IMG/VR virus record: IMGVR_UViG_3300025072_002799
Coordinates: 1 to 64,000 of that record
Reading direction: 5' to 3' (one strand)
Origin: a virus
Length of the DNA stretch: 64,000 nt
Shown here piece by piece: positions 4,370-43,660 of the stretch (its first letter is position 1; each line of letters opens with the position of its first letter). The translations under genes and the position numbers were made by a program. The notes below the pieces were generated by a model. That model did not search any database and was not told the DNA's origin. It worked only from the letters and a program-made list of their open reading frames with translations.

Positions 4370-4577
4370 GTTCTGCCAACACGCCTACATCTTTGATCTC
4401 CAAAAACGTTTCTAAATAAACAAACTTATCATCAAAACGACTAACTGGGAGCCATGCTCCATGATTTTTAAGTGCATCAACCAACTCTATGCATGTATTG
4501 GTTGGAGCGCCGTGATCCAAGATGACCTCCAAAATGTCTTCTGAAATGACATCTTTTTTAAGTCTAGCTTCAATCAT
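4344..4577 (-). CDS. Hypothetical phage protein (77 aa)
   Basis: A short soluble protein (MIEARLKKDVISEDILEVIL...). The pattern resembles other small phage proteins with a WLPVSRFDDKFVYL-type beta segment, as in the gene at 6347-6571. Its ATG overlaps the stop of the coaC-M23 gene, so the two are probably co-translated. Confidence 0.5.
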   Translation of the reverse strand: MIEARLKKDVISEDILEVILDHGAPTNTCIELVDALKNHGAWLPVSRFDDKFVYLETFLEIKDVGVLAEHVELVQND

Positions 4578-5644
4578 CCAACTGACGCTCCTGATTCATT
4601 ATCCCAAGTTAACGTATTGGTTGGTGCGTTTGACGCTTGTATTAGATTTTGAGTTGGATCTAGCAAATCTGGATTTTTTTGTGGGTCATGCCAATTTGCA
4701 TAATCGCGAGTGCCAGGTTTATACAATTCAATATGAAGCATCGAAGTGCTATGACCAGGAATGTCTGGTCTATGTCGATCTTCGAAAAGAACTCTTTTAA
4801 CGGCTCCAATACGTTGCCCTCTCTTTACAGGCTCTCCTACCTTCAGTTCTGGGGAAACTTCTCCATAATTAACAACGCCGCTTGCACCTTCAATCATAAC
4901 TCCATAAGTTTCTTCCCACCAACTATGACCAACAGCAGGACCAGTAAACACGTCCGCTTTAACAACGATGCCATCTTCTACAGCGACAACTTCTTGTCCG
5001 TCATTGCAATAAAGATCTACGCCAGTGTGATGATTTTTCTTTCGATGAAATCCAAATGCTCCTGGGTGGTGATTGATAGGAATCCCATTACATTGTTCTA
5101 ATGGAAATTGCCATCTTAAGGAATTTTTTACATTTCGCACAATAGATTCAACAGAAGCCATTGCTCCAATTCCAACATCTCCACACGCCAGCTTCTTGCT
5201 TACAGGAGGGTCCATGAAAACGCCCCTATTTTGCAATGATTCAATTTGCATTCCTGTAGGATGATTATTCCACATCATTGTGTTCATTGCTGGCGCTACG
5301 ACAACTGGGTTTTTCCAATCCCATGCCCTATACAAGCAAGTCAGCAAATTGTCGCATATGCCATTATGAAGCTTTGCCAATGTGTTGGCTCCAAGAGGTG
5401 CAATGACAAGGCAAGATGCCCAATTCCTTAACTCGATATGTAAGATTGGATCACCAAGTTTATAATCATCTTTCCACTCATCTGCATCTTGGTACACTGG
5501 AAAGTTGATGTCTTTTGGGAAGAATTGCATCGCAGAAGAAGTTGCGACTATTCGAACTTCTCCAATTTCGCTTAGTGCTGATGCCAATTCATTCACTTTA
5601 ATAGCAGCAACACTTCCTGTTACTCCAAGAATGATGTTACGCAT
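4574..5644 (-). CDS. coaC: Phosphopantothenoylcysteine decarboxylase (CoaC-like) fused to M23 peptidase domain
   Basis: The start is at ATG 5644 (GVTGSVAAIK follows); a longer frame to 5680 lies inside coaB. Residues 1-180 are a flavoprotein of the PPC decarboxylase family: the active-site His of LHIELRNWA (H69), the PAMNTMMW motif (118-125) and the catalytic Cys in LACGDVGIG (C154) are all present, so it should decarboxylate phosphopantothenoylcysteine to phosphopantetheine. Residues about 190-335 are an M23 (LytM-type) domain: the HxxxD zinc pair (H206, D210) and H304 of MLHIEL are kept, but the usual catalytic His positions read Glu (YGEV) and Met (SMLH). I know of no such fusion. The overlap with coaB supports a shared pathway role. 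Confidence 0.8.
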   Translation of the reverse strand: MRNIILGVTGSVAAIKVNELASALSEIGEVRIVATSSAMQFFPKDINFPVYQDADEWKDDYKLGDPILHIELRNWASCLVIAPLGANTLAKLHNGICDNLLTCLYRAWDWKNPVVVAPAMNTMMWNNHPTGMQIESLQNRGVFMDPPVSKKLACGDVGIGAMASVESIVRNVKNSLRWQFPLEQCNGIPINHHPGAFGFHRKKNHHTGVDLYCNDGQEVVAVEDGIVVKADVFTGPAVGHSWWEETYGVMIEGASGVVNYGEVSPELKVGEPVKRGQRIGAVKRVLFEDRHRPDIPGHSTSMLHIELYKPGTRDYANWHDPQKNPDLLDPTQNLIQASNAPTNTLTWDNESGASVG

Positions 5645-6350
5645 TTGCAAGCTCCTCAATGCTATTAACAACTCCCTCAACTTGTTCTGCTTTTAGGATG
5701 TTTATTTTATCACGTTCAACCAACAGAACTTCATGATTCCCTGCTTTCAAAGAATTTAAGTCGTTTGCAATCACCAGATCACATCCATTACCTTCAATGC
5801 TTTTCATAGCCGCTTCGATTAACTCTTCTTGTGGAACGCCAACAAGAAGTTTGAATCCAACCAAGAACGTTGAAGGGTGCCATTCCTTTACTTTAGAAAT
5901 GATCTTTTCTGCTGGATGAAGTTCAATAGACATTTCATCTTGAGATCTAGCCTTTTCTTCTGACTTTTTCACAACATAGTCGCTGACTGCTGCTGCCAAC
6001 AGAACGACATCTGGTTTCTGTTCTTTTATTAGTTTTTCAAGACCACTTCTATAGTCTTCATAATTTCGGAACTGGCTCTCTTGATATTGGTCTTGTTTCT
6101 TCCAGCACCAATGAGCGTGATCTTGAAACCGATCCACTTGAACAATTGGATTTACGTTATCTGAGGCGAAATCATATTCAAACTTAAATGGAGTGCGTGA
6201 ACGCTTTGCGCAAAAAAGGTGAACTTCATGATCTTTATCAAGAAATTGTTTTGCAAGTTTTGAACCAAAAGTCCCATTGCTCAAATTCGTTATATCTCTA
6301 ACTGGGTCAATAGGAACCTTTGTCCCTCCACTCGTGATTAGAACCTTCAT
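5637..6350 (-). CDS. coaB: Phosphopantothenate-cysteine ligase (CoaB-like)
   Basis: The 237-aa protein begins with the family signature LITSGGTKVPIDPVRDITN, the nucleotide-binding start of CoaB. It keeps VVLLAAAVSDY, HPAEKI, FLVGFK and DLVIANDL. The expected reaction joins 4'-phosphopantothenate to cysteine using CTP, just before the CoaC step. In most bacteria CoaB is the C-terminal half of a CoaBC fusion in the opposite order; here it is a separate gene upstream of coaC, overlapping it by eight bases. A phage-borne CoA biosynthesis pair is an auxiliary metabolic function. Confidence 0.85.
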   Translation of the reverse strand: MKVLITSGGTKVPIDPVRDITNLSNGTFGSKLAKQFLDKDHEVHLFCAKRSRTPFKFEYDFASDNVNPIVQVDRFQDHAHWCWKKQDQYQESQFRNYEDYRSGLEKLIKEQKPDVVLLAAAVSDYVVKKSEEKARSQDEMSIELHPAEKIISKVKEWHPSTFLVGFKLLVGVPQEELIEAAMKSIEGNGCDLVIANDLNSLKAGNHEVLLVERDKINILKAEQVEGVVNSIEELANA

Positions 6351-6571
6351 ACTACTGTTAATTCAATGTATTCAGATGGGAAAAGATACGTTTCGTCGTA
6401 TGTGGCTACTGAAACCCAGCAGTCATCGAATGAATCAACGTCAAATTCGACACCTTGATCTTTGAATCCTTTTATCTGGTTAATTGTCCAATGATCCGGC
6501 TCACCTACCATTGCTTTCGCAAATTGATAAGGAGTGGCAGTTTTCTTGATTTTCGCTTTAATGGATGACAT
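6347..6571 (-). CDS. Hypothetical phage protein upstream of coaB
   Basis: The start is placed at ATG 6571 (MSSIKAKIKKTATPYQ), giving 74 aa; a GTG at 6598 would add nine residues. The sequence ends YDETYLFPSEYIELTVV, similar in feel to the small protein at 4344-4577. Its stop overlaps the coaB start. It is first in the operon driven by the promoter at 6616-6644. Confidence 0.5.
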   Translation of the reverse strand: MSSIKAKIKKTATPYQFAKAMVGEPDHWTINQIKGFKDQGVEFDVDSFDDCWVSVATYDETYLFPSEYIELTVV

Positions 6572-6615
6572 TTGCAGTCCGTTTGGGGGGTAGATCACAA
6601 AACAGTTTACGTTCC

Positions 6616-6644
6616 ATTATACTTCAAAAAATGGACTTTGTTAA
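6616..6644 (-). promoter_or_regulatory. Strong sigma70-like promoter for the coaBC operon
   Basis: Minus strand: -35 TTAACA (6639-6644), 17-base spacer, perfect -10 TATAAT (6616-6621). It lies just below a terminator for the preceding genes, so it defines a new transcription unit. Confidence 0.7.
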
Positions 6645-6648
6645 GTCC

Positions 6649-6682
6649 AAAAAAAAACGCTCGCTATTTTTCAAGCGAGCGT
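6649..6682 (-). terminator. Intrinsic terminator
   Basis: A nine-bp perfect GC-rich stem (ACGCTCGCT / AGCGAGCGT, eight-base loop) followed on the minus strand by a run of eight T. It terminates transcription coming from the gene at 6717-6977. Confidence 0.85.
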
Positions 6683-6716
6683 CTTTGGGCAACGTTCTCA
6701 ACATTCTTCTATGTTG

Positions 6717-6977
6717 TTATGTTATTGGCTCATAAGGTTCATCAGCTATGTCTGCCATTGCATCACTCAATAAATTTGCAGCAAATGCAATTCCGGCCTT
6801 TTGTGCCTCTTCTGCGGTTTTGAAGTGCTTAACCATACATTGTTCCATTAATCTACGTCTACCAAACGATACAGTCCAAGTGCCTTCATCTCGTCCACTA
6901 GAATGAGTCACAGACAAAACAAACATCCCTATTTTTGTCGTATAACAATCTGGTTTTGGGTTAGCTGTCCAATCCAT
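6717..6977 (-). CDS. Hypothetical protein (86 aa)
   Basis: Starts MDWTANPKPDCYTTKIGMFV. The composition suggests a small beta-sheet domain followed by an alpha-helical tail (KTAEEAQKAGIAFAANLLSDAM). Last gene before the terminator at 6649-6682. No family recognised. Confidence 0.5.
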   Translation of the reverse strand: MDWTANPKPDCYTTKIGMFVLSVTHSSGRDEGTWTVSFGRRRLMEQCMVKHFKTAEEAQKAGIAFAANLLSDAMADIADEPYEPIT

Positions 6978-6986
6978 ATAGGCTCC

Positions 6987-7214
6987 TTATTCAAAAGTTT
7001 CTCCGTTATTAAGACCTTCTATAACCTCTTCCATGACTTCCAATGCTTGTTGTGGCGAAAATCTTCTTCCGACTAATTTCAAGTCACTGACAGATACATC
7101 TTCTACATTGCGTGCATCGCCTTCAACCATAAATACTAATCCTGCAAAGGAATCTCTTCTCATAAGTTCATCAACAAGTTCTTCATTGGTGAGGTATTCT
7201 GCTGGTATTTCCAT
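6987..7214 (-). CDS. Hypothetical acidic protein (75 aa)
   Basis: Starts MEIPAEYLTNEELVDELMRRD and is acidic and helical, with no recognised domain. It lies two bases downstream of the ClpP-like gene and ten bases upstream of the next, so it is in the same operon. Confidence 0.5.
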   Translation of the reverse strand: MEIPAEYLTNEELVDELMRRDSFAGLVFMVEGDARNVEDVSVSDLKLVGRRFSPQQALEVMEEVIEGLNNGETFE

Positions 7215-7216
7215 TT

Positions 7217-7828
7217 TTATCCAAACTCAACCGTGACTTCAACACTTGTTCTTAATGTAGGTACACGAATGAAATTAATTAAATTAAGTTTTTTTGCTTG
7301 TTGAGCGGTAAGATACCATTCGGCATGTCCTTTTTCATGGATTTCTTTACTAAAGAAATTTCTATCTTGTCCACAATTTTTGTCCATCATGTTGAATATC
7401 ATCTTATTTAGCCGGTCTGTCTCAGAAGCCTCCGCTTTAATTTCTTCATTTTTTCCTGCCGCCATATTAGACACATCATGGATCATTATTCTTGAATTTA
7501 CATCACAATAACGATGCCCTTCTGTTCCAAAGCTCAATAAAATACTCCCGCACGACATTGCTTTCCCTTGGCAAATAGTTGCAACAGGGACTTCTGCATT
7601 TTGAATTTCAGAAATCATATGAATCAAGGCGTCTACTTGTCCTCCATACGAGTCAATGACAATTGGTATGATTGGTTGACCTGATTGATGTGCTTTTTGC
7701 ATGTCTAGTGAAAACGTCTTAGCAGATGCTTCTTTGAATTCATTTACATGAATTACAACCGGAAGATCCATAGGAACATCATTCTTCTTTAGCTTTAGCC
7801 TGGGGTCTATTGTCAGAAGATTTTTCAT
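7217..7828 (-). CDS. clpP: ClpP-like serine protease (S14 family)
   Basis: The 203-aa protein has the ClpP fold signature: INSYGG-type strand (VIDSYGGQVDALIHM), catalytic Ser in GKAMSCGSILLSFG, catalytic His in RIMIHDVS and the C-terminal helix WYLTAQQAKKLNLI. The usual catalytic Asp position appears as Glu-Trp (AEWYLT instead of DFFMS), an oddity. Phage ClpP-like proteins act either as prohead or scaffold proteases or as regulators of host ClpP; with no head genes nearby the role here is open. Confidence 0.75.
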   Translation of the reverse strand: MKNLLTIDPRLKLKKNDVPMDLPVVIHVNEFKEASAKTFSLDMQKAHQSGQPIIPIVIDSYGGQVDALIHMISEIQNAEVPVATICQGKAMSCGSILLSFGTEGHRYCDVNSRIMIHDVSNMAAGKNEEIKAEASETDRLNKMIFNMMDKNCGQDRNFFSKEIHEKGHAEWYLTAQQAKKLNLINFIRVPTLRTSVEVTVEFG

Positions 7829-8018
7829 TTTTAGCCAGTTCTGTTAGTGAATTTATTTTATTTTCAAGTTCATCTATTCTACTTTCAGATTCAATAAATC
7901 TTTCAGCGAATATACGTTCTAATTTAGTTGTAAGAGTGCATTCTTCCCACGTTTCTAAGTTTCTCAAAACAACTGGGTAGCTTCGTGTTGATATTTCATA
8001 CTTCGGCATTTTTGGCAA
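7779..8018 (-). CDS. Small coiled-coil protein (79 aa)
   Basis: The N-terminal beta-rich part (MPKMPKYEISTRSYPVVLRN) is followed by a coiled-coil-like helix (ESESRIDELENKINSLTELA) and a charged tail. It overlaps both neighbours (50 bases into the ClpP-like gene, 23 bases with the phosphatase gene), which is typical of compact phage operons. Function unknown. Confidence 0.5.
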   Translation of the reverse strand: MPKMPKYEISTRSYPVVLRNLETWEECTLTTKLERIFAERFIESESRIDELENKINSLTELAKNEKSSDNRPQAKAKEE

Positions 8019-8616
8019 TCCAAATTATTTGTCGTTCTTTAATATAAGTTAAACTACAGTAAGGAACTTTCTCAAAATTTACACTAAGGCCACTTACAAC
8101 CTCTGATAAACTTATAATAAAATCTGAATGTGTAATCAAGACCGATTTGAAAGGAATCTCTTTTGCAATTGAATCCAAACGTAGGCAAAAGGAATCTGGA
8201 GTCTCTTTTTCGGAAAAAGCTGATAATTCATCTCTCTCCTCAAAGGTTATATTAGTCTCATTTCTAAAAATTTCAGAAGTTTCCATGCACCTTCTGGCTG
8301 GACTACAAAACATTTCGTAATCAGTCAACTCAATTTGTCTAGAAAGAAAAAAAGCCGTCTTACTTGCTTGTAGACGGCCTTGTTCGCAAAGACTTGGATT
8401 ATCGCCATCCAAATTAGGTTGGGCGTGACGTATCAAAATTACTTGCTTGAGATAAAAATTCATATCTTCACTTCGAAACTCTTGGGATTGAGGATCTATA
8501 AAGCCACTTGTTATTTGACTATTATCCCGCTGTTCAGAAGTAAGCTTTCCAAATGCTTCGCCATGGTTGTATCCGGTGTATATTCTACCATCTACAAATA
8601 GTGCTGGCAATTTCAC
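7996..8616 (-). CDS. Histidine phosphatase superfamily protein
   Basis: GTG start at 8616 behind GGAGAAAAG. The C-terminal ~150 residues are a phosphoglycerate-mutase-like phosphatase: the nucleophile motif LIRHAQPN, the Arg of SPARRCMET and the second His in LITHSDFIISL are present. The N-terminal ~50 residues (ALFVDGRIYTGYNHGEAFGKL) form an extra small domain that I have seen on other phage proteins. It may remove phosphate from a small metabolite; substrate unknown. Confidence 0.75.
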   Translation of the reverse strand: MKLPALFVDGRIYTGYNHGEAFGKLTSEQRDNSQITSGFIDPQSQEFRSEDMNFYLKQVILIRHAQPNLDGDNPSLCEQGRLQASKTAFFLSRQIELTDYEMFCSPARRCMETSEIFRNETNITFEERDELSAFSEKETPDSFCLRLDSIAKEIPFKSVLITHSDFIISLSEVVSGLSVNFEKVPYCSLTYIKERQIIWIAKNAEV

Positions 8617-8774
8617 GACTTTTCTCCATCATTTGAATCACTATAATATATTTATTTATCTATCGTTATCGCAAAACACCAAACCAACGAGAACTTTTTG
8701 TATTTCTTGTTTTTATTTGAAATTTTCATTCATTAAACACTACTATACTATATCAAGTTTAAGTATAGGTATCA

Positions 8775-9941
8775 ATGGAAGATTACACATATAAATTCAG
8801 ACTCTATCCAACAAAGGAGCAAGAGATTAAGCTTGCCAAGCATTTCGGTTGTGTGCGTTGGGCATATAACCACTTTCTTGACCGACGTGTAAAATTCTAC
8901 CTTAATGCTAAAGAACAAGATCTTGAAAAGAAATCACTTAACTACAATGACGACTCCAGAGAATTAACAATTATCAAGAAAGAAAAAACTTGGTTAAACG
9001 AGGTTAATGCGCAATCATTACAACATTCACTAAAACATTTGGAATCAAGTTTCAATCGCTTCTACAAAAAGTTGGCAAAGTTTCCACGCTTTAAAAATAG
9101 TCGATCAAAACAAAGTTTTAGAGTTCCGCAGAGCATTAAGGTAAAAGACAATATGCTTTATATTGTAAAATTCAGAGAAGGCATTAAAGTTAATCTACAT
9201 CGTCAAATTGAAGGCAAAATTTGCAATGCTACGATCAGCAGAAATAAAGTTGGTCAGTATTATGTGTGTATTGGGGTGCAACGACATATTCCTAAACTCA
9301 AACCAAACGAAAACCAAGTTGGCGTTGATTTAGGAGTTAAAACACTTGTTACGTGCTCAGATGGCAAAGCGTTTAAGAACATTAAGCCATATCGCAATCT
9401 TCAAGATCGCAGACGCATTTATGCAAAAGCATTGTCACGGACAGAAAAGGGAACTCGTGGCAGAGACAAAGCACGACGCAAACTTGCGAAATTAGACTTG
9501 AAGATAGCCAATATACGAAACAATCATTTGCATAAAATTAGTCATCAACTTGTTAGCGAGAACCAAACTATCGTGATGGAAGATTTGAACGTAAAAGGAA
9601 TGTTGAGTAATCGCAAATTGTCCAAAGCCATTTGGGACTGTTCTTTATCAGAATTAACTCGACAGATCGAGTATAAATGTAAGTGGTATGGTCGAGAATT
9701 TTTACAAGTTAGCCGATGGTTTCCATCTAGTAAAACTTGTGAAAGTTGCGGATACGTCAACGATGGTTTGACGTTAGCCGATAGAGAATGGACTTGTCCA
9801 AGATGCAAAGTTAAGCATGATCGTGACATGAATGCTGCAAGAAACATTTTGCGACAAGGATTAAATCAAGAAAATAGAACCGTAGGAACTACGGAGATAG
9901 CCGATTGTCTTGGTGTAAGACCTGCTTTAGCAGGCAACTGA
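8775..9941 (+). CDS. tnpB: TnpB-type RNA-guided nuclease (IS200/IS605 OrfB), number 1
   Basis: 388 aa with the complete RuvC-like triad: Asp in QVGVDLGVKTLV, Glu in TIVMEDLNVKGM and Asp in HDRDMNAARNI, plus a zinc ribbon (CESCGY...CPRCKV). It lies alone on the plus strand between minus-strand genes and has no tnpA transposase beside it. The C-terminus (TVGTTEIADC) is the usual TnpB tail, where the omega-RNA overlaps the gene end. A hairpin (CCTGCTTTAGCAGG) and GGATCGGAAGCCACC follow, as in IS605-family right ends. Confidence 0.9.
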   Translation: MEDYTYKFRLYPTKEQEIKLAKHFGCVRWAYNHFLDRRVKFYLNAKEQDLEKKSLNYNDDSRELTIIKKEKTWLNEVNAQSLQHSLKHLESSFNRFYKKLAKFPRFKNSRSKQSFRVPQSIKVKDNMLYIVKFREGIKVNLHRQIEGKICNATISRNKVGQYYVCIGVQRHIPKLKPNENQVGVDLGVKTLVTCSDGKAFKNIKPYRNLQDRRRIYAKALSRTEKGTRGRDKARRKLAKLDLKIANIRNNHLHKISHQLVSENQTIVMEDLNVKGMLSNRKLSKAIWDCSLSELTRQIEYKCKWYGREFLQVSRWFPSSKTCESCGYVNDGLTLADREWTCPRCKVKHDRDMNAARNILRQGLNQENRTVGTTEIADCLGVRPALAGN

Positions 9942-13835: not shown

Positions 13836-14012
13836 TTATTTATATTTATCACCACTTTTTATTCCAAACAGCTTCTCTGCTTTTTTGGAACGTTTCGTAA
13901 CTGGCTTATATTTAGTACGTCCCTTTAATAATCCATTATTGCTAACATCTCCCATTCCCATGGAATTCTGTCCCAATCCTTGTTCTAGCCATTTTTTAAA
14001 GCATAATTTCAT
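13836..14012 (-). CDS. Small basic protein with capsid-targeting-like N-terminus (58 aa)
   Basis: ATG 14012 overlaps the stop of the HAD gene (ATGA). The start MKLCFKKWLEQGLGQ fits the CF-x-K-W-L-E pattern seen in other proposed packaged proteins. The remainder is very basic (GRTKYKPVTKRSKKAEKLFG). Small, basic and tagged is how T4 internal proteins look, so it may be co-injected with DNA. Confidence 0.5.
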   Translation of the reverse strand: MKLCFKKWLEQGLGQNSMGMGDVSNNGLLKGRTKYKPVTKRSKKAEKLFGIKSGDKYK

Positions 14013-14851
14013 TTTTTTACCGGAATATCAATGACATAATGACCTGACTGGTTGTTAAAAACTTGATGTATTACAAAAGACTCTAAATTTGGCCACATCT
14101 TAAACAGCTTGTCTCCCATAGACTTCCAATGGGGGATATGGTCGCTTCTATCGTCCCAAGTCTCTATAACTCTAATATTGTTGTGCATAAGCTTGTTTAC
14201 AACCGCATATTCTTTATGCGCCCAAGTATCTGCAACAGGCTTTCCTTTGGCGGTTTGTGGATAATCTGGCTCAGTTCTTAAATCTCCACTATAAAATTCA
14301 TCATGCGAACCAGGACCTTCATCGTTTGCATGAGGAACATGATTGTCAATTGCCTTCTCATTAGAGTCTGGGATGTATCTCTTTCCATGAAGGTCATGAT
14401 GCTTCAAAACATTTCTTACGTGGTCAGAAGCAACGTCACGTCGCCCTGTAATCATTGCCACATGAGTATTTGGGTCAACCTTAGCCTGTCTCATTGCATC
14501 GACTATAGAGTCATTCATGGGCTTTCCAGGGAAGTGCGTGTCTCCCAACGAAGCTTCGCTTCCCCACCAATCTTTTCCATCCCAGCCACCCAAATGATCA
14601 TGAACGACCTTTTCAGCGTTATCCATATCAAGTTTAGCGGACTGTCTTTGACGTGCTGTTGATGTTTCGCTTTTGTGAGCAGCCCTATGCTTCTTTCTTG
14701 CATTATTAAGCTTTTTAATGGAAGACTGAGCCTCTGTAGACCTATGTGGGGTTTCTGGAACTCTTGCAAGAGTGCTGTCAAAATCGAAAATTGCTAATCG
14801 TGTCTTCATCGGCTGGTGTGCCTCAAAAAAGTTTTTAAAGTATAGTTCCAT
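14009..14851 (-). CDS. HAD-superfamily phosphatase, 'Swiss Army Knife RNA repair'-like
   Basis: The start is most likely ATG 14851 (MELYFKNFFEAHQ) or ATG 14875; a longer frame begins inside a terminator. HAD motifs: I LAIFDFDSTLARVP, II AMITGRRDVA, III a Lys region near AHKEYAVV, IV ETWDDRSDH. The order GGWDGKDWWGSEASL between motifs I and II, and the DDRSDH motif, match the HAD family described as Swiss-Army-Knife RNA repair-like. The N-terminus (ELYFKNFFEA) fits the shared capsid-targeting-like tag. Probable 3' or 5' phosphate removal during RNA repair. Confidence 0.7.
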   Translation of the reverse strand: MELYFKNFFEAHQPMKTRLAIFDFDSTLARVPETPHRSTEAQSSIKKLNNARKKHRAAHKSETSTARQRQSAKLDMDNAEKVVHDHLGGWDGKDWWGSEASLGDTHFPGKPMNDSIVDAMRQAKVDPNTHVAMITGRRDVASDHVRNVLKHHDLHGKRYIPDSNEKAIDNHVPHANDEGPGSHDEFYSGDLRTEPDYPQTAKGKPVADTWAHKEYAVVNKLMHNNIRVIETWDDRSDHIPHWKSMGDKLFKMWPNLESFVIHQVFNNQSGHYVIDIPVKK

Positions 14852-14876
14852 ACGTTTATCTATGTGTGGGCGCATT

Positions 14877-14916
14877 AAAAAACCCACCAAGATGTTACCA
14901 TCTTGATGGGTTTTTT
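14877..14916 (-). terminator. Bidirectional intrinsic terminator ending the RNA locus
   Basis: A long stem (AAAAAACCCACCAAGATG with CATCTTGATGGGTTTTTT, loop TTAC) with T runs on both strands. On the minus strand it ends transcripts coming from the 14.9-16.3 kb RNA region, just before the HAD gene start. Confidence 0.85.
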
Positions 14917-15836
14917 ACAACGCACAATCCGCTAATCCACTATGGTTAAGTGAACTAACCTATTAACGGCAACTCTTAGCATTACTCCAGCAGGGATGTA
15001 CGTCACAACCTGTTGGCTCACCACTTGGGGATCTTTTTCTATATGCTCGAAATGTCATTTCACAAAAATTCTTGAATAATAGCCAACTACTGTTACCATA
15101 GATGGTCATTATTTTTCAAACTTTTCAAAAACAACACACTTGCATGTTAGGATTGGTCCAAGTTCTTAATGTTGCAAACGTCGTTTGCTATTCTGAATTA
15201 AGTAACAGAATCGTTTCTTTGGAGATCAATAATTCTCCAGGCTCAACAAAGCAATTGAAATGCGACCATTCCTTGAAGGCTTAATTTAGTAAATGCAAAC
15301 CTAAATGTATCCCGCTTTGTACCAAGGCTTCTATATCAAAAATCACACCAAATGGTAGATGCTCACCATTTTCGTATTGGTTTTTTTGATATAGATTTGA
15401 TTAAACTACTTTTGTTCCACATCTTCATTTCTGAGATTTGGTTTTCACTTAATCGCCTAATTCAGTCCTTTCACTCTCTAATATTTAGTTCTAACATAAC
15501 CAATTAGATGTGTGTCAACAGTGTTTTAACCCTTGCGGCGTGATCTCATTCTTGACGTTAGTAATTAGAATGATGTCCATAGTTAGTCAGACTTAGTTCC
15601 GAAGCCCACTCACAGGTTAACGGTTAACGTCCCCCAAAACAGCCAGTCTTGGTTTAGTTTCCCGTAAAGATTATGGCGTGTCCCATATTCTTTCCCAGCC
15701 TTATCAGCTTTTGCAAGAGTGGATTTCTCCACTCCTCTGTGAGATTTTTTGTTTCAAATTGTCAAAGATCTGATTTGTGTGGGCGAATTACATGCGATCA
15801 ACAGTGATGAACCTCCCGCAAGACACCAGCACACAG
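14917..15836 (-). ncRNA. Candidate large structured non-coding RNA (about 0.9 kb)
   Basis: No convincing gene lies on either strand here; the only 60-codon frame lacks a ribosome site and coding character. The sequence holds many local hairpins: a 66-base nested stem at 15330-15395 (outer TCTATATCAAAAA arm, inner ACCAA/TTGGT and ATGGT/ACCAT), a seven-bp stem with a GAAA (GNRA) tetraloop on the minus strand at 15717-15734, GGAGA/TCTCC, GCAAAC/GTTTGC and CCAGCAGG/CCTGTTGG stems. It lies between tRNA-like RNAs and a strong terminator. Size, tRNA proximity and phage setting resemble the GOLLD and ROOL classes. The identity is inference. Confidence 0.5.
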
Positions 15837-15917
15837 TGGGGTGGAAAGGGATCGAACCTTTCAATTTAACTCTTGCTCGAAAGCAAGGGTTACGTTTTTC
15901 CACTAAACTACACCCCA
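15837..15917 (-). ncRNA. tRNA-like RNA A (no normal anticodon loop)
   Basis: Read on the minus strand it folds as a cloverleaf of 81 nt: perfect seven-bp acceptor (TGGGGTG/CACCCCA), TA linker, four-bp D stem with GTGG loop, and a T arm with a canonical TTCGATC loop but a six-bp stem (GAAAGG/CCTTTC). In place of a 17-nt anticodon arm there is a 26-nt hairpin (TAAC, one mismatch, CTTGCT, TTCG tetraloop). A start at T is known for tRNA-Gln, but no anticodon can be assigned. Confidence 0.55.
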
Positions 15918-15984
15918 AATGAAGCACTAAAATTAATTAAAAATCATTGGCGACGACTTTCTGACTAATTGCTAGTGCCTCAAG

Positions 15985-16066
15985 CAGTAGGGGGAGGAAT
16001 TTAACCTCCCATCTCTTACTCTTGCCCGTAGACATGAGTAAACGCTTTACTATAAGCTACCTACTA
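15985..16066 (-). ncRNA. tRNA-like RNA B (no normal anticodon loop)
   Basis: 82 nt on the minus strand. Acceptor TAGTAGG/CCTACTG (first pair T-G), TA linker, D stem GCTT/AAGC, six-bp T stem GGGAGG/CCTCCC with loop TTAAATT. The anticodon arm is replaced by an extended hairpin (TTACTC, A-A mismatch, TGTC, TACG tetraloop). The same layout as RNA A shows this is not random. Confidence 0.5.
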
Positions 16067-16210
16067 TAACAGACGATGGCGAGAAACATTCAACCGAGTC
16101 AAAGCCACCATCTATTACGCGACAGAAACCGTTAGGTTATCTGTCATGAGATTAGTGCAATTGAAAATAACGGTTGGCCCATAATTTTAACTATGCAACA
16201 AAATCTCAAG
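16067..16210 (-). other. Spacer between tRNA-like RNAs with further hairpins
   Basis: No gene. It contains a stable hairpin on either strand (GACAGA with TCTGTC, inner AACC/GGTT) and GATGG/CCATC complementarity, but I could not build a full cloverleaf. Confidence 0.35.
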
Positions 16211-16292
16211 AGGTGGAGGAAGGTGTCGCGCCTTCCATCTCGACTCTCTCCCTAAGGAAAGTGTCGCGCTTTTCTAATTAAGCTATCCGCCT
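16211..16292 (-). ncRNA. tRNA-like RNA C (no normal anticodon loop)
   Basis: 82 nt on the minus strand, beginning at the last base of the stop codon of the gene at 16292-16513. Acceptor AGGCGGA/TCCACCT (one C-A mismatch), TA linker, D stem GCTT/AAGC, six-bp T stem GGAAGG/CCTTCC with a degenerate loop CGCGACA. The anticodon arm is a 26-nt hairpin (CGAC, A-A mismatch, CTTTCC, TTAG loop). The motif GCGCGACAC occurs twice, in the arm and in the T loop. Confidence 0.45.
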
Positions 16293-16513
16293 TATCTTTT
16301 TTTAATCTTTCCTACCACTTCAACTTGAACAGGAACTTCATCAATGTTTTCTGGAAGTTCTTTTTCTGTTGGTGACAACAAATTTACTTTCAATCCATAT
16401 CCATCATCTAAACGAACAATTCCGACAGACACATGTTTTCCGACTATTGAGACAAAAGTTTCAACCGCTTTTTCTTTGGCTTTTCTAGCCAAATCAATGT
16501 TAGCGCCTTTCAT
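16292..16513 (-). CDS. Hypothetical protein (73 aa)
   Basis: Starts MKGANIDLARKAKEKAVETFVSIV. A helix is followed by a beta-rich part (HVSVGIVRLDDGYGLKVNLL...VPVQVEVVGKIKKR), a small alpha/beta domain I cannot name. It sits directly before tRNA-like RNA C. Confidence 0.5.
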   Translation of the reverse strand: MKGANIDLARKAKEKAVETFVSIVGKHVSVGIVRLDDGYGLKVNLLSPTEKELPENIDEVPVQVEVVGKIKKR

Positions 16514-16525
16514 CTTTGCATCCCC

Positions 16526-16744
16526 TTATAGTTTATAGTGTCCACGTTTTCCTGGTCTGGAAATAAAATTTCCAATCGCCCTGAATGCATAACGAATATC
16601 GCCCACAAGAGACAAGCAATCGCCTTCTAATGTTAAAAAATCAGCGTCTCCAACATACTTGGCATCCAATTTTTCACCATCATAAGTCTCACACTCGTAC
16701 CAAACATCTACTACAAGATCTTTTTCTTCAATGTAACTTGCCAT
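16526..16744 (-). CDS. Hypothetical protein (72 aa), apparently leaderless
   Basis: ATG at 16744 (MASYIEEKDLVVDVWYEC). A consensus promoter ends only five bases before the ATG, so the message would start at or next to the start codon. The product is a small beta-rich acidic protein with a basic C-terminus (RPGKRGHYKL). No family recognised. Confidence 0.5.
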   Translation of the reverse strand: MASYIEEKDLVVDVWYECETYDGEKLDAKYVGDADFLTLEGDCLSLVGDIRYAFRAIGNFISRPGKRGHYKL

Positions 16745-16749
16745 AATCA

Positions 16750-16778
16750 ACTATAGTGGTTCAACCCATTCTTGTCAA
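16750..16778 (-). promoter_or_regulatory. Consensus promoter (TTGACA, 17-bp spacer, TATAGT)
   Basis: Minus strand: perfect -35 TTGACA at 16773-16778, 17-base spacer, -10 TATAGT at 16750-16755. The same -10 and adjacent context (AACTATAG on the plus strand) recur at 17476 and 17552. Confidence 0.75.
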
Positions 16779-16784
16779 GTGGAT

Positions 16785-17420
16785 TTATTCCTCGTATCTT
16801 TTGTTGGCTACATCTTGCAAATCGCGTTCTAATTGGAATACCAACTCTCTTGAATCATCAGCTTCACCTCCATCTTGACAACCACGAAACAACATTGTGC
16901 TAAGCAAGTCACGTCTTATTAGACGACAGAATTGTGACACAAGATTGAATTCCATAAAGTGTTCTGGTGGCTTGAATTCTTCCGGCAAACGTTCACAAAT
17001 TTCTTCAAAATCTATATCGTCTAACTTTCCTCTTTCCAGACCAATTTCTTTTAGAGTACCCGTAAACATCAATCGTTCAAAACAAAAATGTTTCAAATTT
17101 GATGTAACTCTATCAATAAGAGGCTGTCCCCACATCGTGGCAGTCTTTTGATATTCAATTACACGATCCCACGCATCCTGGTGAAAGAAAATAGCTCTTT
17201 CTTGATAACACTCTTGCATGTCTTCTTTAGTTTCGCCTTCAATCCATCCATAGTCGTTATATTTGCTTTCTTTGTAGATGGCAGAGACATGCCTCATGTC
17301 AAATGTTGACTCAAAGTTGCAATACTTATGCATTTCCTTGTCAAATAGAACCATTACACAATCTTGCCCATGAAAAATTGGCAGGAGTGTAATTGCACAA
17401 GTTTCGTCCCAACAACCCAT
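16785..17420 (-). CDS. Conserved phage protein, MGCWxETC family (211 aa)
   Basis: The N-terminus MGCWDETCAITLLPIFHGQD is a signature I associate with a family of uncharacterised proteins in large phages. Cys and His residues in the first 20 positions could bind metal. The C-terminus is helical and charged (VFQLERDLQDVANKRYEE). Driven by the promoter at 17476-17503. Function unknown. Confidence 0.6.
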   Translation of the reverse strand: MGCWDETCAITLLPIFHGQDCVMVLFDKEMHKYCNFESTFDMRHVSAIYKESKYNDYGWIEGETKEDMQECYQERAIFFHQDAWDRVIEYQKTATMWGQPLIDRVTSNLKHFCFERLMFTGTLKEIGLERGKLDDIDFEEICERLPEEFKPPEHFMEFNLVSQFCRLIRRDLLSTMLFRGCQDGGEADDSRELVFQLERDLQDVANKRYEE

Positions 17421-17475: not shown

Positions 17476-17503
17476 ACTATAGTGACAAAAGTTTCTTTGT
17501 CAA
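17476..17503 (-). promoter_or_regulatory. Promoter for the MGCW-family gene
   Basis: Minus strand: perfect -35 TTGACA (17498-17503), 16-base spacer, -10 TATAGT (17476-17481), about 55 bases before the ATG at 17420. Confidence 0.7.
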
Positions 17504-17643: not shown

Positions 17644-19182
17644 CTACATGTTTAGTTTTGAGTGCTTTCCAAGGAAGTCACCATACATTTTTGCCACCAA
17701 TTGCTGTTTTCTGTTTCCTACAGATGGACCATGAACCTGTCCAGAAATAGGATCTCTCAAATCAGCAAAGTCTTGATGAAGGTTATCGTCATCGTCATAC
17801 ACAGAAGGCATTTTCGACTTCATCAGATCTCGGAGCGCATTAGTATGACCAGATGGTCGTTTCATAAGTTTTGACCACCTTTCCAATCTTCCTCCATCAT
17901 TGGCATATTCTCCTGGCCAAGGATTATTGGCATGCATCCTCATTAACTCTTTTCCATCTTCATGATCCATCGCAGAAGAATTCATCAACCATGTGATTGC
18001 TTTTACTTCTGTGTTTGGCCATCCAGCACTATTCAGCATTTTGGTAACTTTGCCAATGTCATTGTCTCTTAGAATCCAAGCAACAGATACCAAACGATCT
18101 TTCTCGTTGATAATGTCTTCTGGACCGTCTAACTTGAATGTCATTCCAGGGAATACCTTTTTGAGGAATCCAAGATCACGATACAAACGAATGTATTTCT
18201 TAGGATCAATCTCAGAGTCTTCCAACCCTTTCAAGAATTCGTCTCTAGCACGTTCTTTAGACACTGACTTGAAATTGTCTTCAACAAGAGTTTCAATGGC
18301 TTCTTTATACTTTGGAGGAATGTTTGCGACAGTTCCTTTTCCGTATTTGGAATAGAAACGGACATATCTAAATGCTCGCAATTGATCTTCCTCAAGTCTG
18401 TCTGATGCTTTTCCAACAAACAGAACATCAGAATTTCCTTTCCCACCAGACATATGGGTCAATCCGCCATGAGGGTCATGTAGTTTTCCATTGGCACCGT
18501 CTGCGTTGTCCAATTTGATGTACATGGCGTTAATGGTGAAGTCTCTACGACCAGCATCTCCAGCAAGGTCAGAAAAACTCATCTTGTCTGGAGTTCTACC
18601 ATCTCCACTCTTGGAGTCTTCGCGGAAAGTAGCAAGTTCCATTTCTTCGCCACCACCAATACGGATTCCAATGACAAATTCACTGCCCTCTCTATCCCAT
18701 CCTTTGGCATAAAATTGCTTATTCTTATCCTGAGTGACACCTTTGGGCGGTTTAATATTATCTACATTCGACTTTTTCCCAGCCCCGCCAGTACCTTCAG
18801 TCTCGGTAAATCCCTGAGAAAGAAGAATCATTCGGATTTCACTAGGAGTTGCATCTGTTGCCAAGTCAAGATCCTTGGGCTTTTTCCCAAGCATATGATC
18901 CCTAACAGCGCCACCTACCAAATAGAGGCTCTTTCTCTTTAGTTTGATGTCTTCGGTGCCGCCTTCTCCCTTAACGGTGTTGTATCCACCAGAGATAAAG
19001 TCTCCAACACGGACATTTCCACTTTCATTAAAAGCCTTGATGACAGGAACTAACACAGAGTTATTGCTTCTATCCACAATGAACTCTTGACCTTTTTCAA
19101 GTTTTCGGTCAGTGCTAGTTGCTTTTGGTCCGTCAGAACCCTCTTGAAGCTTAACGAAATTACTGAAAGATTGTTTTTTCAT
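17644..19182 (-). CDS. cca: CCA-adding tRNA nucleotidyltransferase with capsid-targeting-like N-terminus
   Basis: 512 aa. A class II nucleotidyltransferase core: GG-V-RD signature in LYLVGGAVRDHMLGK, catalytic DLDLAT, RRDFTINAM, and DRLEEDQLRAFRYVRF. It should add or repair the 3' CCA end of tRNAs. Bacterial enzymes are usually about 400 aa; extra sequence lies at the N-terminus (~80 aa), in the 140-180 region and at the C-terminus. The N-terminus MKKQSFSNFVKLQE followed by Gly carries the shared tag and an LxE site, suggesting packaging into the head. The gene lies just before the tRNA-like RNA locus. Confidence 0.85.
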   Translation of the reverse strand: MKKQSFSNFVKLQEGSDGPKATSTDRKLEKGQEFIVDRSNNSVLVPVIKAFNESGNVRVGDFISGGYNTVKGEGGTEDIKLKRKSLYLVGGAVRDHMLGKKPKDLDLATDATPSEIRMILLSQGFTETEGTGGAGKKSNVDNIKPPKGVTQDKNKQFYAKGWDREGSEFVIGIRIGGGEEMELATFREDSKSGDGRTPDKMSFSDLAGDAGRRDFTINAMYIKLDNADGANGKLHDPHGGLTHMSGGKGNSDVLFVGKASDRLEEDQLRAFRYVRFYSKYGKGTVANIPPKYKEAIETLVEDNFKSVSKERARDEFLKGLEDSEIDPKKYIRLYRDLGFLKKVFPGMTFKLDGPEDIINEKDRLVSVAWILRDNDIGKVTKMLNSAGWPNTEVKAITWLMNSSAMDHEDGKELMRMHANNPWPGEYANDGGRLERWSKLMKRPSGHTNALRDLMKSKMPSVYDDDDNLHQDFADLRDPISGQVHGPSVGNRKQQLVAKMYGDFLGKHSKLNM

Positions 19183-21462: not shown

Positions 21463-22769
21463 TCAATTGCCCCGCCGCCAAAAGACGGCAGGGCTTGTTA
21501 CACTGCCTAAGCAGAAACATTAGCGGTTGTTAAACCACCGTTAGGCAAATTGACAGTTGCCCAATCTGGATAGCCTGTAGCGTCCAGATATTTGAGTACA
21601 ATATTTTTACTAGCATTAAGGTCAGCATTCAATTGGAAGCCACACTTTCTACATTTGAAATTGCTTTGGTTCTGGCGATTGCCTTTGTGTATGTGTCCGC
21701 ATTTGCTACATCTTTGCGAAGTGTAGCGTGCGTCAACATACACGACTTGACATCCTTTTGCCATCGCTTTGTAAGTCAAAAATTGTTCAAATTGAAAGAA
21801 ATTCCATTTATTCACTTCCTTGCGTTGTGGTTTACGAAATTTAGTCGCTCCACCACGAATGCCAGTAAGTTTTTCAAGAACGATGGTTGTTCCTTTTTCA
21901 AGATCTTTAACAATTTGTTTGGCAATACAATGGTTAATGTCCTTCCGCATAAGCCGTTCGCTTCGACTAATTTTAGCCAAGTGTCTTTTTGCAGAACGAG
22001 TGCCTTTACTTTGCAAAGCACTTCTCAACCTTTCATATCGTTCACTCAATCGTTTAATTCTTCCGCCACCGTAAAACCTATTGTCACTTACCGTAGCCAA
22101 TTTTCTGATGCCTCGATCAATGCCAATCATTTTTCCAGATGGTTCAACATCTTCAGTTTCTTTTTCAAAGACAATGTGCAGAAATGTTTTGCCTTTGACT
22201 TGAAAAAGATCTGCCGAGCATCGTTTCCATGTAAGATATTGTTCAAAATGTTTGGGGACAAAAATAGGAAGTCGAACTCTGCCTTTAAGTGTCAAAATGT
22301 TGATGGTCCTATTGGCAAAATCAACAGTCAAACTTCTGTCATCGTACCTAATTGTCGAGCATTTATTTTTAGGACAGGAAACTTTCTTTCCTTTCTTTTT
22401 ACTAACTTGAGTAGAAGCAAGTGCTTCTGTGGCTTTAACTCTGGCAGAAATAGCCAGTTGGCTTTTGAGTCCCGTGTCATTTCTGACTTGGTGGTAGGTC
22501 AAATGATGCAGACTAACTCCGTTAAACTCTTGGTTGTCCCAAGCAGTTTGACAAACATAATTGAAAGCGTCAGTATATGCTTCAAGCGTTGGCTTGAAGG
22601 TTTCACTGTCAACTTCCAATTTCAATTTAATGGTTCTCATCTGTTTCATATACGTACTCTATATAGAGTAGTCGAAGACAGATTTTGCCATAAATTATTT
22701 AAATTTTGTACTAATTATTTTGGAGACGGGCATCCTCACGGCTTTGACGTAGGAGTTTCTTGCTCGAAA
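21462..22769 (-). mobile_element. TnpB element (IS605-family, tnpB only), inserted between two late genes
   Basis: The element reads on the minus strand. The left part (22700-22769) carries a GGGCATCCTCACGGC block typical of IS605-family ends and a palindrome TACTCTATATAGAGTA (22654-22669). The right end has the hairpin GCCCTGCCGTC/GGCGGCGGGGC (21469-21496). ATCA occurs at both borders. Removing the element would join GCGGATA to ATCAG-ATG and place the next gene four bases after the previous stop. Confidence 0.65.
21507..22649 (-). CDS. tnpB: TnpB-type RNA-guided nuclease (IS200/IS605 OrfB), number 2
   Basis: 380 aa, intact RuvC-like triad: Asp in MIGIDRGIRKLATV, Glu in TIVLEKLTGIRG, Asp in LNADLNASKNIV; zinc ribbon CSKCGH...CRKCGF. 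It differs clearly from the copy at 8775-9941, so the two were acquired separately. No tnpA. The omega-RNA would span the 3' end of the gene and the hairpin at 21469-21496, with the guide read from the flanking end of the upstream late gene. Confidence 0.9.
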   Translation of the reverse strand: MKQMRTIKLKLEVDSETFKPTLEAYTDAFNYVCQTAWDNQEFNGVSLHHLTYHQVRNDTGLKSQLAISARVKATEALASTQVSKKKGKKVSCPKNKCSTIRYDDRSLTVDFANRTINILTLKGRVRLPIFVPKHFEQYLTWKRCSADLFQVKGKTFLHIVFEKETEDVEPSGKMIGIDRGIRKLATVSDNRFYGGGRIKRLSERYERLRSALQSKGTRSAKRHLAKISRSERLMRKDINHCIAKQIVKDLEKGTTIVLEKLTGIRGGATKFRKPQRKEVNKWNFFQFEQFLTYKAMAKGCQVVYVDARYTSQRCSKCGHIHKGNRQNQSNFKCRKCGFQLNADLNASKNIVLKYLDATGYPDWATVNLPNGGLTTANVSA

Positions 22770-42317: not shown

Positions 42318-43127
42318 ATGCCTAATATTGAATCAGTACCACAAGTATATTACGAACCGCTCCACGTATACCATTATGAATTTGACAATTTGCCTTTGCG
42401 CAACATCATATTCAGACAGCAAATTATAAATAGTGCTCTAGACCTGCAAATATCAGATATGTCAGCAGCTAGAGGCGATGCGGGCACATTAGAGAATCGT
42501 CTTGCACAATCTCTTAACGATTCAGGGCAATTAAAAGATACTGCCATTGATTTAGCTTTGCACAACATTGCAAGCCATACAGATGGAAGCATTGATATAA
42601 GTGGAACTCCTGTCAGCTTCGTTAGGATGCTTGATGACGAAAGAGACAAGCTTGCACTTATTACAGATGAAGCAACAAATTTTTCATTGAGATTTGAAAC
42701 TGTCGGTCCTAGTTTGACCCCAGTTACATTTGATGATGGCATTTTGCCAATTGAAGATTCCAGCACGGTTACGTGGAGGTTGGATTCAGGTGGTTCGATT
42801 TTAGCTGATATGGTTTTTCCAACTTCAGCCGCACACCAGCATGTTTACGATGCTGAAGCAATAAGTGCGAGTCTTTCCTCCCCTGATTATACTAATTATA
42901 AGTCAACCTCAATTTCAACAGCATACGTAGAGGACAGCCTTCGGGTTTACATAAATGGATCACGTTTGAGTCAGGACGAGTTAATTTACGCTCCTGGCCC
43001 CACACCAACAGACGATTTCGTTCTTATTGGCTACACGGAAAGCCCTTCAGCAGGAACGTTCGTTCTAACCACAGCTATTACGGCTAGTGACGTGATTCGA
43101 ATTGATTTTGATATAGCTTTAGCATGA
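42318..43127 (+). CDS. Virion (fibre or neck-like) structural protein (269 aa)
   Basis: Good AAGGAG site. A helical region LENRLAQSLNDSGQLKDTAIDLALHNIASHTDG is followed by beta-rich repeats and a C-terminal domain ending FVLTTAITASDVIRIDFDIALA, a usual structure of phage fibre or fibre-connector proteins. Possible ATAAATA late-promoter motif 22 bases upstream (42289-42295). Function not known. Confidence 0.5.
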   Translation: MPNIESVPQVYYEPLHVYHYEFDNLPLRNIIFRQQIINSALDLQISDMSAARGDAGTLENRLAQSLNDSGQLKDTAIDLALHNIASHTDGSIDISGTPVSFVRMLDDERDKLALITDEATNFSLRFETVGPSLTPVTFDDGILPIEDSSTVTWRLDSGGSILADMVFPTSAAHQHVYDAEAISASLSSPDYTNYKSTSISTAYVEDSLRVYINGSRLSQDELIYAPGPTPTDDFVLIGYTESPSAGTFVLTTAITASDVIRIDFDIALA

Positions 43128-43660
43128 TTTTTTATCCCAAAGACCTGGATGCAGGCTTTGTGATACTTTGCTTAGACGGGAATTCTGGTTATTTAGAACA
43201 TACCCTGAAATCTATACGATTTAGGTATGGAGATATTCCCTGCATTGCAATAGTGGAACAAGGGACATCCAAAAAACAAATAAAAAGAATGGAAGAACTG
43301 TGCCCAATTTATAGGGGCAAAAACACTGTAACTTCCTTAATCAATACCGGAATGAGAAACAGCGACAATGGATGGAATATGTTCCTTGTTGCTGGCGTCT
43401 GGCTAGGCGGAACTGAAATTAAAAGGATGTCTATTTTTGTGGAAAGCGAAAAAGACATTCTTTTCCCAGTAATTGACAAAGCGTTTAATTGGGAAAACTC
43501 TACCTTAAATGGGCTTTTGATGCACAAGACTTCTTTCAAAGAAGTTGGTCCATTTATAGACAACAATACTCCTTTAGATATGTGCAAGTTTATTTGGGGA
43601 GTGGAAGCTGAACAGCGAGGATGTAAATTTAAGTCCGTATTAGGACCTAAAATAATTTAG
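43124..43660 (+). CDS. Glycosyltransferase-like fold protein (178 aa)
   Basis: ATGA overlap with the preceding gene. The layout GFVILCLDGNSGYLEHTLKSIRFRYGDIPCIAIVEQG resembles the first half of GT-A transferases, but the DxD motif is missing and the protein is short. It may be a degenerate glycosyltransferase fold used structurally. Similar small transferase-like genes occur elsewhere in the fibre region (51727, 53355). Confidence 0.4.
   Translation: MIFYPKDLDAGFVILCLDGNSGYLEHTLKSIRFRYGDIPCIAIVEQGTSKKQIKRMEELCPIYRGKNTVTSLINTGMRNSDNGWNMFLVAGVWLGGTEIKRMSIFVESEKDILFPVIDKAFNWENSTLNGLLMHKTSFKEVGPFIDNNTPLDMCKFIWGVEAEQRGCKFKSVLGPKII

Follow-up and report, generated by a model that had tools for sequence, protein, structure and literature searches.

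The tRNA genes of phages have been explained by codon use and, more recently, by the replacement of tRNAs that host defences destroy. Three tandem tRNA-shaped RNAs in which a sealed hairpin occupies the place of the anticodon arm raise the question of what a phage may gain from a tRNA body that can no longer read a codon. The window analyzed here is a stretch of 64,000 nucleotides from a 111,202-base IMG/VR virus record. For the major capsid protein of this phage (gp23), identity is 78% with its counterpart in the 595-kb huge phage LR756511.1 and 80–100% with those of many IMG/VR contigs of up to 533 kb; judging by this closeness, we are very likely dealing with a fragment of a huge-phage genome.

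The three RNAs are located at 15837-15917 (copy 1, 81 nt), 15985-16066 (copy 2, 82 nt) and 16211-16292 (copy 3, 82 nt), exactly where the initial annotation had placed them without naming a strand. All are encoded on the minus strand, where they follow one another 5′ to 3′ as copy 3, copy 2 and copy 1, with spacers of 144 and 67 nt. They share a layout of a 7-position acceptor, a TA linker, a 4-bp D stem, 1–2 nt, a long arm, 4–5 nt and a 6-bp T stem with a 7-nt loop, so that the cloverleaf proposed earlier is recovered in the folds, apart from the fully paired 7-bp acceptor, which in copy 3 is broken by one C-A mismatch. Specifically, copy 1 has the acceptor TGGGGTG/CACCCCA, the D arm GTTT-AGTGGAA-AAAC, the T arm GAAAGG-TTCGATC-CCTTTC and, at 15892-15867, the long arm TAACCCTTGCT-TTCG-AGCAAGAGTTA. 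Copy 2 has the acceptor TAGTAGG/CCTACTG, the D arm GCTT-ATAGTA-AAGC, the T arm GGGAGG-TTAAATT-CCTCCC and, at 16041-16016, the long arm TTACTCATGTC-TACG-GGCAAGAGTAA with an additional outer T-G pair. Finally, copy 3 has the acceptor AGGCGGA/TCCACCT, the D arm GCTT-AATTAGAA-AAGC, the T arm GGAAGG-CGCGACA-CCTTCC and, at 16266-16241, the long arm CGACACTTTCC-TTAG-GGAGAGAGTCG. Base 1 of copy 3 is also the final base of the stop codon of the upstream ORF. The same copy bears an 18-nt direct repeat (16217-16234 and 16255-16272, 89%), and its T arm resembles the junction of its D stem and long arm.

In every copy, the anticodon arm is replaced by a hairpin of 26–28 nt with a 4-nt loop, consisting of 11–12 positions with one mismatch. 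The tetraloops, UUCG in copy 1, UACG in copy 2 and UUAG in copy 3, all fit YNMG and are the TTCG, TACG and TTAG loops read earlier from the DNA; the one-mismatch hairpin described with them is likewise present in all three folds. None of the three offers the 5-bp stem and 7-nt loop, with U33 and a readable anticodon, of a canonical tRNA. A helix of 11 pairs with a tetraloop extends past the anticodon position and cannot pair with a codon, hence decoding on the ribosome is excluded unless the arm is processed. Compared with a canonical tRNA, the three RNAs retain the order of the cloverleaf, the stacked acceptor and T arms, the D stem and TA at positions 8–9, but they carry a tetraloop-capped helix where a tRNA has a 17-nt arm, their T stem is of 6 bp, and ahead of the D stem the 5′ strand lacks one base for a 7+5 arrangement. 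The acceptor/T helix amounts to 13 bp with the end pair counted (7/6), or to 12 bp (6/6) if the end base is the discriminator. Non-standard lengths of this kind are shared with allo-tRNAs and tRNA-Sec (7/6 or 6/6 here; 8/4, 9/3 and 8/5 cloverleaves there), which have a normal anticodon stem and 7-nt loop.

Tools for tRNA detection mostly pass over these genes. ARAGORN, one of the checks named by the initial annotation, detected no tRNA in the window, a result that does not extend to normal tRNAs of the phage as a whole, the record being a 111-kb fragment of a probably much larger genome. The Rfam tRNA model (RF00005) reported copy 1 only, at 35.1 bits against a gathering cut-off of 29, with 13 nt inserted in place of the anticodon loop. 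Since ARAGORN misses all three and the Rfam model two of them, such genes may be under-annotated in huge phages. The tmRNA families of Rfam gave no match in 14800-16800 at E-values up to 5. The tRNA core is nevertheless kept in all copies, namely U8, A9, A14 and A21 (the first and last A of the D loop) and G26/A44, the arm of copy 2 being flanked by an extra nucleotide at each end. The elbow motifs are found in copy 1 only, as the D-loop GG (AGTGGAA) and the canonical T loop TTCGATC that had been noticed in one RNA; copies 2 and 3 lack both GG and TTC. Copy 1 also resembles Gln tRNAs in its U1-A72, G2-C71 and G3-C70 pairs and in its D loop AGTGGAA, which is also that of a tRNA-Gln of LR756511.1. 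Compared with a set of 297 tRNAs from related phages, it reaches a best score of 25.0, the best of 100 shuffles reaching 18.0, and the matches of copies 2 and 3 to known tRNAs lie barely above shuffles.

The fold of the three RNAs is well beyond chance. The folding energy of each copy is better than that of all 200 of its dinucleotide shuffles (z = -3.5, -4.4 and -3.7 for copies 1, 2 and 3). A strict descriptor, demanding a 6-bp T stem with a 7-nt loop, at least 6 of 7 acceptor pairs, a 4-bp D stem and an arm of at least 10 of 11 pairs with a 4-nt loop, matched exactly the three RNAs in the window, and 200 Markov-randomised 64-kb windows gave no match at all. Additionally, with copy 2 held out, a covariance model of copies 1 and 3 returned it at 51.9 bits (E = 5e-11 over the 111-kb record) as the sole further match, the next-best hit in the 111 kb reaching 12.5 bits. 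Sequence identity among the copies is 56–62% (54–69% in the long arms), and 94% of the pair cells of the alignment hold standard pairs, compared with 49–57% after sliding. Two-sided compensatory changes are seen in 12 of the 24 counted pairs (6 in the acceptor, 4 in the long arm and 2 in the T stem; small counts, from three sequences), and none of 500 shuffles reached the observed pairing and compensation. The absence of such changes from the long arm of homologues had been named beforehand as grounds for abandoning the proposal. The recovery of copy 2 and the maintenance of pairing despite sequence change indicate that the three RNAs are homologous and that pairing has been maintained in the long arm too. 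Because the stems still pair while their sequence changes, selection appears to have acted on the altered shape once the copies had arisen by duplication; if they descend from different tRNAs, some differences in the acceptor or T stem could be older than the loss of decoding. The three RNAs are non-decoding paralogues derived from tRNA and kept in shape.

The view that they form a separate RNA class and not the product of random decay is thus well supported within the phage, where a distinct non-decoding RNA type is indicated by homology and by compensated pairs in the acceptor, the T stem and the long arm; as a class that is widespread with this exact sequence, it did not hold up. The covariance model that retrieved copy 2 found no further copy of this type in the remainder of the 111-kb record, and a search of about 90 related virus records, chosen by their CCA enzyme, baseplate wedge or gp23, with covariance model R1 yielded no orthologue of the trio, only ordinary or otherwise altered tRNAs. 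A degenerate DNA pattern of D arm plus long arm matched nothing in IMG/VR or GTDB contigs, and a blastn search with the region as query yielded no useful match among 50,697 phage records. An unrestricted tRNA-like descriptor returned mostly chance folds in coding DNA when applied to the relatives, and stricter filters were used instead. Single tRNA-like genes with altered arms were identified in huge phages of the gp23 clade or in those sharing the CCA enzyme or the phosphatase described below. LR756511.1 has one with an 8-bp arm and a GAAA loop (290616-290689), called tRNA-??? by ARAGORN; record G089 has one with a long arm and a GCAA loop (156248-156330); phage G059 has one with a 28-nt arm and a 5-nt loop (L254:15704-15784); and that of G014 (L225:15190-15267) keeps a normal 7-nt loop of UAA type, on an arm of 9 positions with one mismatch. 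Other tRNA genes of the relatives bear structured inserts of 12–54 nt in or beside the anticodon arm. Altered anticodon arms are thus a recurring feature of the clade, and among the records examined the window holds the only tandem homologous set.

The RNAs lie between two genes of the tRNA repair and processing kind. The trio lies in a gene-poor stretch (14891..16291, minus strand), the only long one without convincing genes in the 111-kb record, which contains about 950 nt of further, unassigned sequence with structure. Downstream of the trio, 15331-15420 and 15661-15750 (minus strand) fold into strong structures (z = -3.7 and -4.6) that are not tRNA-like and include a GAGTGG/CCACTC hairpin and a 13-bp TCTATATCAAAAA stem. 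Also downstream is a gene for a HAD phosphatase (14009..14890, minus strand) related to polynucleotide kinase and to the "Swiss Army Knife" (SAK) RNA-repair phosphatases, with a Pfam match just below the cut-off and two relatives in IMG/VR at 33% identity. Directly upstream of copy 3 there is an ORF of 73 aa (16292..16513), followed by ORFs of 74 aa (16526..16750) and 211 aa (16785..17420), all on the minus strand; the first two belong to no Pfam family, and for the third no family was found and no relative in IMG/VR. Further upstream, a tRNA nucleotidyltransferase of the CCA-adding type is encoded at 17644..19182 (minus strand) with the motifs GGAVRD, DLD, RRDFTINAM and EEDQLRAFR. The CCA-enzyme gene, the three ORFs, the RNAs and the phosphatase gene therefore stand on one strand in that order. 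A sigma-70-type promoter-like site (TTGACA-17-TATAGT, 11/12) at 16750..16778 precedes the two small ORFs and the RNAs, and a second (TTGACA-16-TATAGT, 11/12) lies at 17476..17503, both on the minus strand and both consensus matches in a region whose total of such sites is no greater than chance. Elsewhere in the window, over the ranges 4574-9941 and 21507-22649 taken together, we observed flavoprotein/DFP (CoaBC-like) ORFs on the minus strand, one of them joined with a peptidase M23 domain, along with a ClpP-like protease (7217-7828), an IS605-type transposase (8775-9941) and another transposase (21507-22649).

Concerning function, the initial annotation had offered substrates, decoys or sensors for tRNA-processing or tRNA-cutting enzymes as possible roles. 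The role that we tentatively rank first for these three non-decoding descendants of a phage tRNA is tRNA mimicry in the conflict between phage and host, with the RNAs acting as competitive decoys. A phage tRNA ancestor would have kept its body while its anticodon stem-loop was exchanged for a longer helix sealed by a stable YNMG tetraloop. The RNAs would probably be transcribed from the minus strand together with the two small ORFs, trimmed like tRNAs by an RNase P-type activity and possibly supplied with CCA by the phage's own CCA-adding enzyme. They could then occupy tRNA-directed enzymes, be they host tRNA nucleases or enzymes of tRNA maturation and quality control, and, offering no anticodon loop to cut, may inhibit them by competition. 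Gene context and published precedents make such a role plausible. The adjoining CCA-adding enzyme and SAK-type phosphatase point to tRNA repair or processing, and both kinds of enzyme have been listed among the defences of jumbo phages against tRNA-cutting effectors (PMC7824862). 

The relatives' ATP-dependent RNA ligases (encoded in 8 of 11 related huge-phage records) and their GAAA- and GCAA-capped tRNA-like genes with long arms count in the same direction. Among the precedents, retron-Eco7 and PrrC are neutralised by phage tRNAs (PMC11555353), a possible decoy role has been raised for a phage tRNA-Tyr against Septu (PMC13096335), and the tRNA-like domain of the bacterial Y RNA YrlA is not cut by an anticodon nuclease, for which competitive inhibition of that nuclease was suggested (PMC7790460). 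Like the defence-countering tRNAs, the window RNAs have a phage-encoded tRNA body and occur in a phage with tRNA-repair genes. The T5 tRNA-Tyr acting on retron-Eco7, the tRNA-Lys acting on PrrC and the mycobacteriophage tRNAs with altered anticodon loops still have an anticodon and still decode (PMC11555353, PMC10264068), whereas the RNAs described here cannot. This difference also weighs against the decoy role: the phage tRNA-Tyr no longer neutralised retron-Eco7 once its anticodon or one of its stem-loops had been changed (PMC11555353), so an RNA without an anticodon may escape recognition by such enzymes. Copies 2 and 3 no longer carry the GG of the D loop or the TTC of the T loop, motifs that are read by many enzymes binding tRNA, and the failure to find orthologues of the trio among the records searched counts against it as well. 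A broader proposal, which we put forward with more doubt, is that this clade of huge phages has turned tRNAs into tetraloop-sealed, non-decoding mimics that serve as uncleavable competitive inhibitors of host defences targeting tRNA, with the three-gene array beside the tRNA-repair genes as the clearest case.

Alternatively, the hairpin itself could be the working part, for instance a protein-binding site, displayed on a tRNA body that stabilises or protects it. We regard this as unlikely, while noting how closely the architecture follows that of the engineered tRNA-Lys scaffold, a tRNA body with a closed foreign hairpin in place of the anticodon stem-loop (PMC3753655), from which the window RNAs differ in being natural, phage-encoded and present in three diverged copies. 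The trio would in itself amount to a natural version of that laboratory tool. Twelve of the 26 arm columns are invariant across the copies (including AGAGT and AC.C), copies 1 and 2 agree better in the arm (18/26) than in the body (29/55), and copies 2 and 3 keep their stems while losing the elbow motifs that tRNA functions need. The tetraloop and the position of the mismatch vary among the copies, however, which argues that no single protein-binding hairpin is being displayed.

That the genes are functionless relics, tRNA genes decaying after hairpin insertions in the anticodon arm, is to our judgement less probable again. The diverse inserts in or near the anticodon arm of many tRNA genes of the relatives, the Gln-tRNA likeness of copy 1 and the degeneration of both D loop and T loop in copies 2 and 3 would all be expected of relics. 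Decay would not conserve pairing, yet pairing is conserved here through 12 two-sided changes at 56–62% identity, and the nearly equal arm length and the YNMG loop of all three copies likewise speak for maintenance.

A lower probability still is given to the RNAs being substrates of the phage's own enzymes, processed, CCA-tailed and perhaps charged, which would tune the neighbouring CCA-adding and repair enzymes or deplete the aminoacyl-tRNA pools of the host. The location of both genes on the same strand fits this, as does the fact that CCA is not encoded in any copy while a C follows each acceptor, as in the tRNAs of the clade. Against it, the homologous CCA enzyme of the relatives (about 40% identical) has no such RNAs nearby, and copies 2 and 3 lack the T-loop features that such enzymes usually read.

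Very improbable is the reading of the three genes as intron-containing tRNA precursors, from whose arm the removal of about 9 nt would leave a normal 7-nt anticodon loop. Related phages do have tRNA genes whose anticodon arm seems interrupted by 12–50 nt, the relatives encode RNA ligases, and the inner arm of copies 1 and 3 starts with CT, making T33 available. Copy 2 would have A33, so T33 is not available in every copy; neither an archaeal-type tRNA splicing endonuclease nor RtcB was detected in the 11 records searched; the tetraloop caps resemble end-points rather than splice substrates; and we know of no precedent for a 9-nt intron. A YrlA-style partnership with a Ro60-like protein, in which the tRNA-like domain recruits RNA-processing enzymes, is scarcely credible even with the permuted YrlA-like units of a related phage. 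In YrlA the order of the arms is permuted, the acceptor is closed and a stem binds Ro60; the window RNAs keep the usual order and show the reverse topology, with the acceptor open and the arm closed. The TROVE/Ro60 gene (PF05731) was not found in the 30 records searched, this record and relatives alike. What YrlA and the window RNAs do share is a tRNA-shaped body without an anticodon loop (PMC7790460).

In the part of the literature covered, we found no account of phage tRNA-like genes whose anticodon arm is capped by a tetraloop. A conserved tRNA body that does not decode separates tRNA shape from tRNA code within one phage gene cluster, and RNAs of this kind make the decoy idea directly testable.

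Other unusual tRNA-like elements were observed in the related phages. The YrlA-like case is a non-coding unit at L090:7110-7545 (G034:40110-40545), in a relative whose baseplate wedge is 58% identical, with a near-consensus promoter (TTGACA-17-TATACT) and a terminator-like hairpin; the same sequence occurs in G023 around 43028-43220. It comprises two circularly permuted tRNA-like units, each with a T arm, an 8-bp acceptor closed by a loop with CGCCCAAAC, a D arm and an opened long stem, and resembles the bacterial Y RNA; a TROVE gene was not found in that record. An Rfam match to "Plastid-psbl-rps4" in a relative was rejected as a tRNA T arm read backwards. A conserved insert of ~45 nt, TCTCNNCG..TGNCC-tetraloop-GGNATG..GNNGGGATTACA with a covarying 7-bp base helix, is present in tRNA genes of G059 (L252:907-950, L252:4872-4969, L252:6212-6335 and L260:13553-13597) and G083 (L256:9599-9721), and takes the place of the anticodon arm in one case. 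It has no Rfam match, and a pattern scan of IMG/VR returned these two phages only. In LR756511.1, two tRNA genes on the minus strand (L244:13626-13751 and L244:16312-16437) share an insert of ~50 nt 5′ of the anticodon stem, made up of a GAAA-capped hairpin followed by TACAAACAGCG. Finally, huge-phage tRNA genes of the Met, Met, Lys and Thr types (L241:2340-2431, minus strand; L230:4410-4492, L252:13184-13276 and L234:1548-1634, plus strand) carry inserts of 12–21 nt, mostly hairpins, in the anticodon loop, and would be normal once these were removed.
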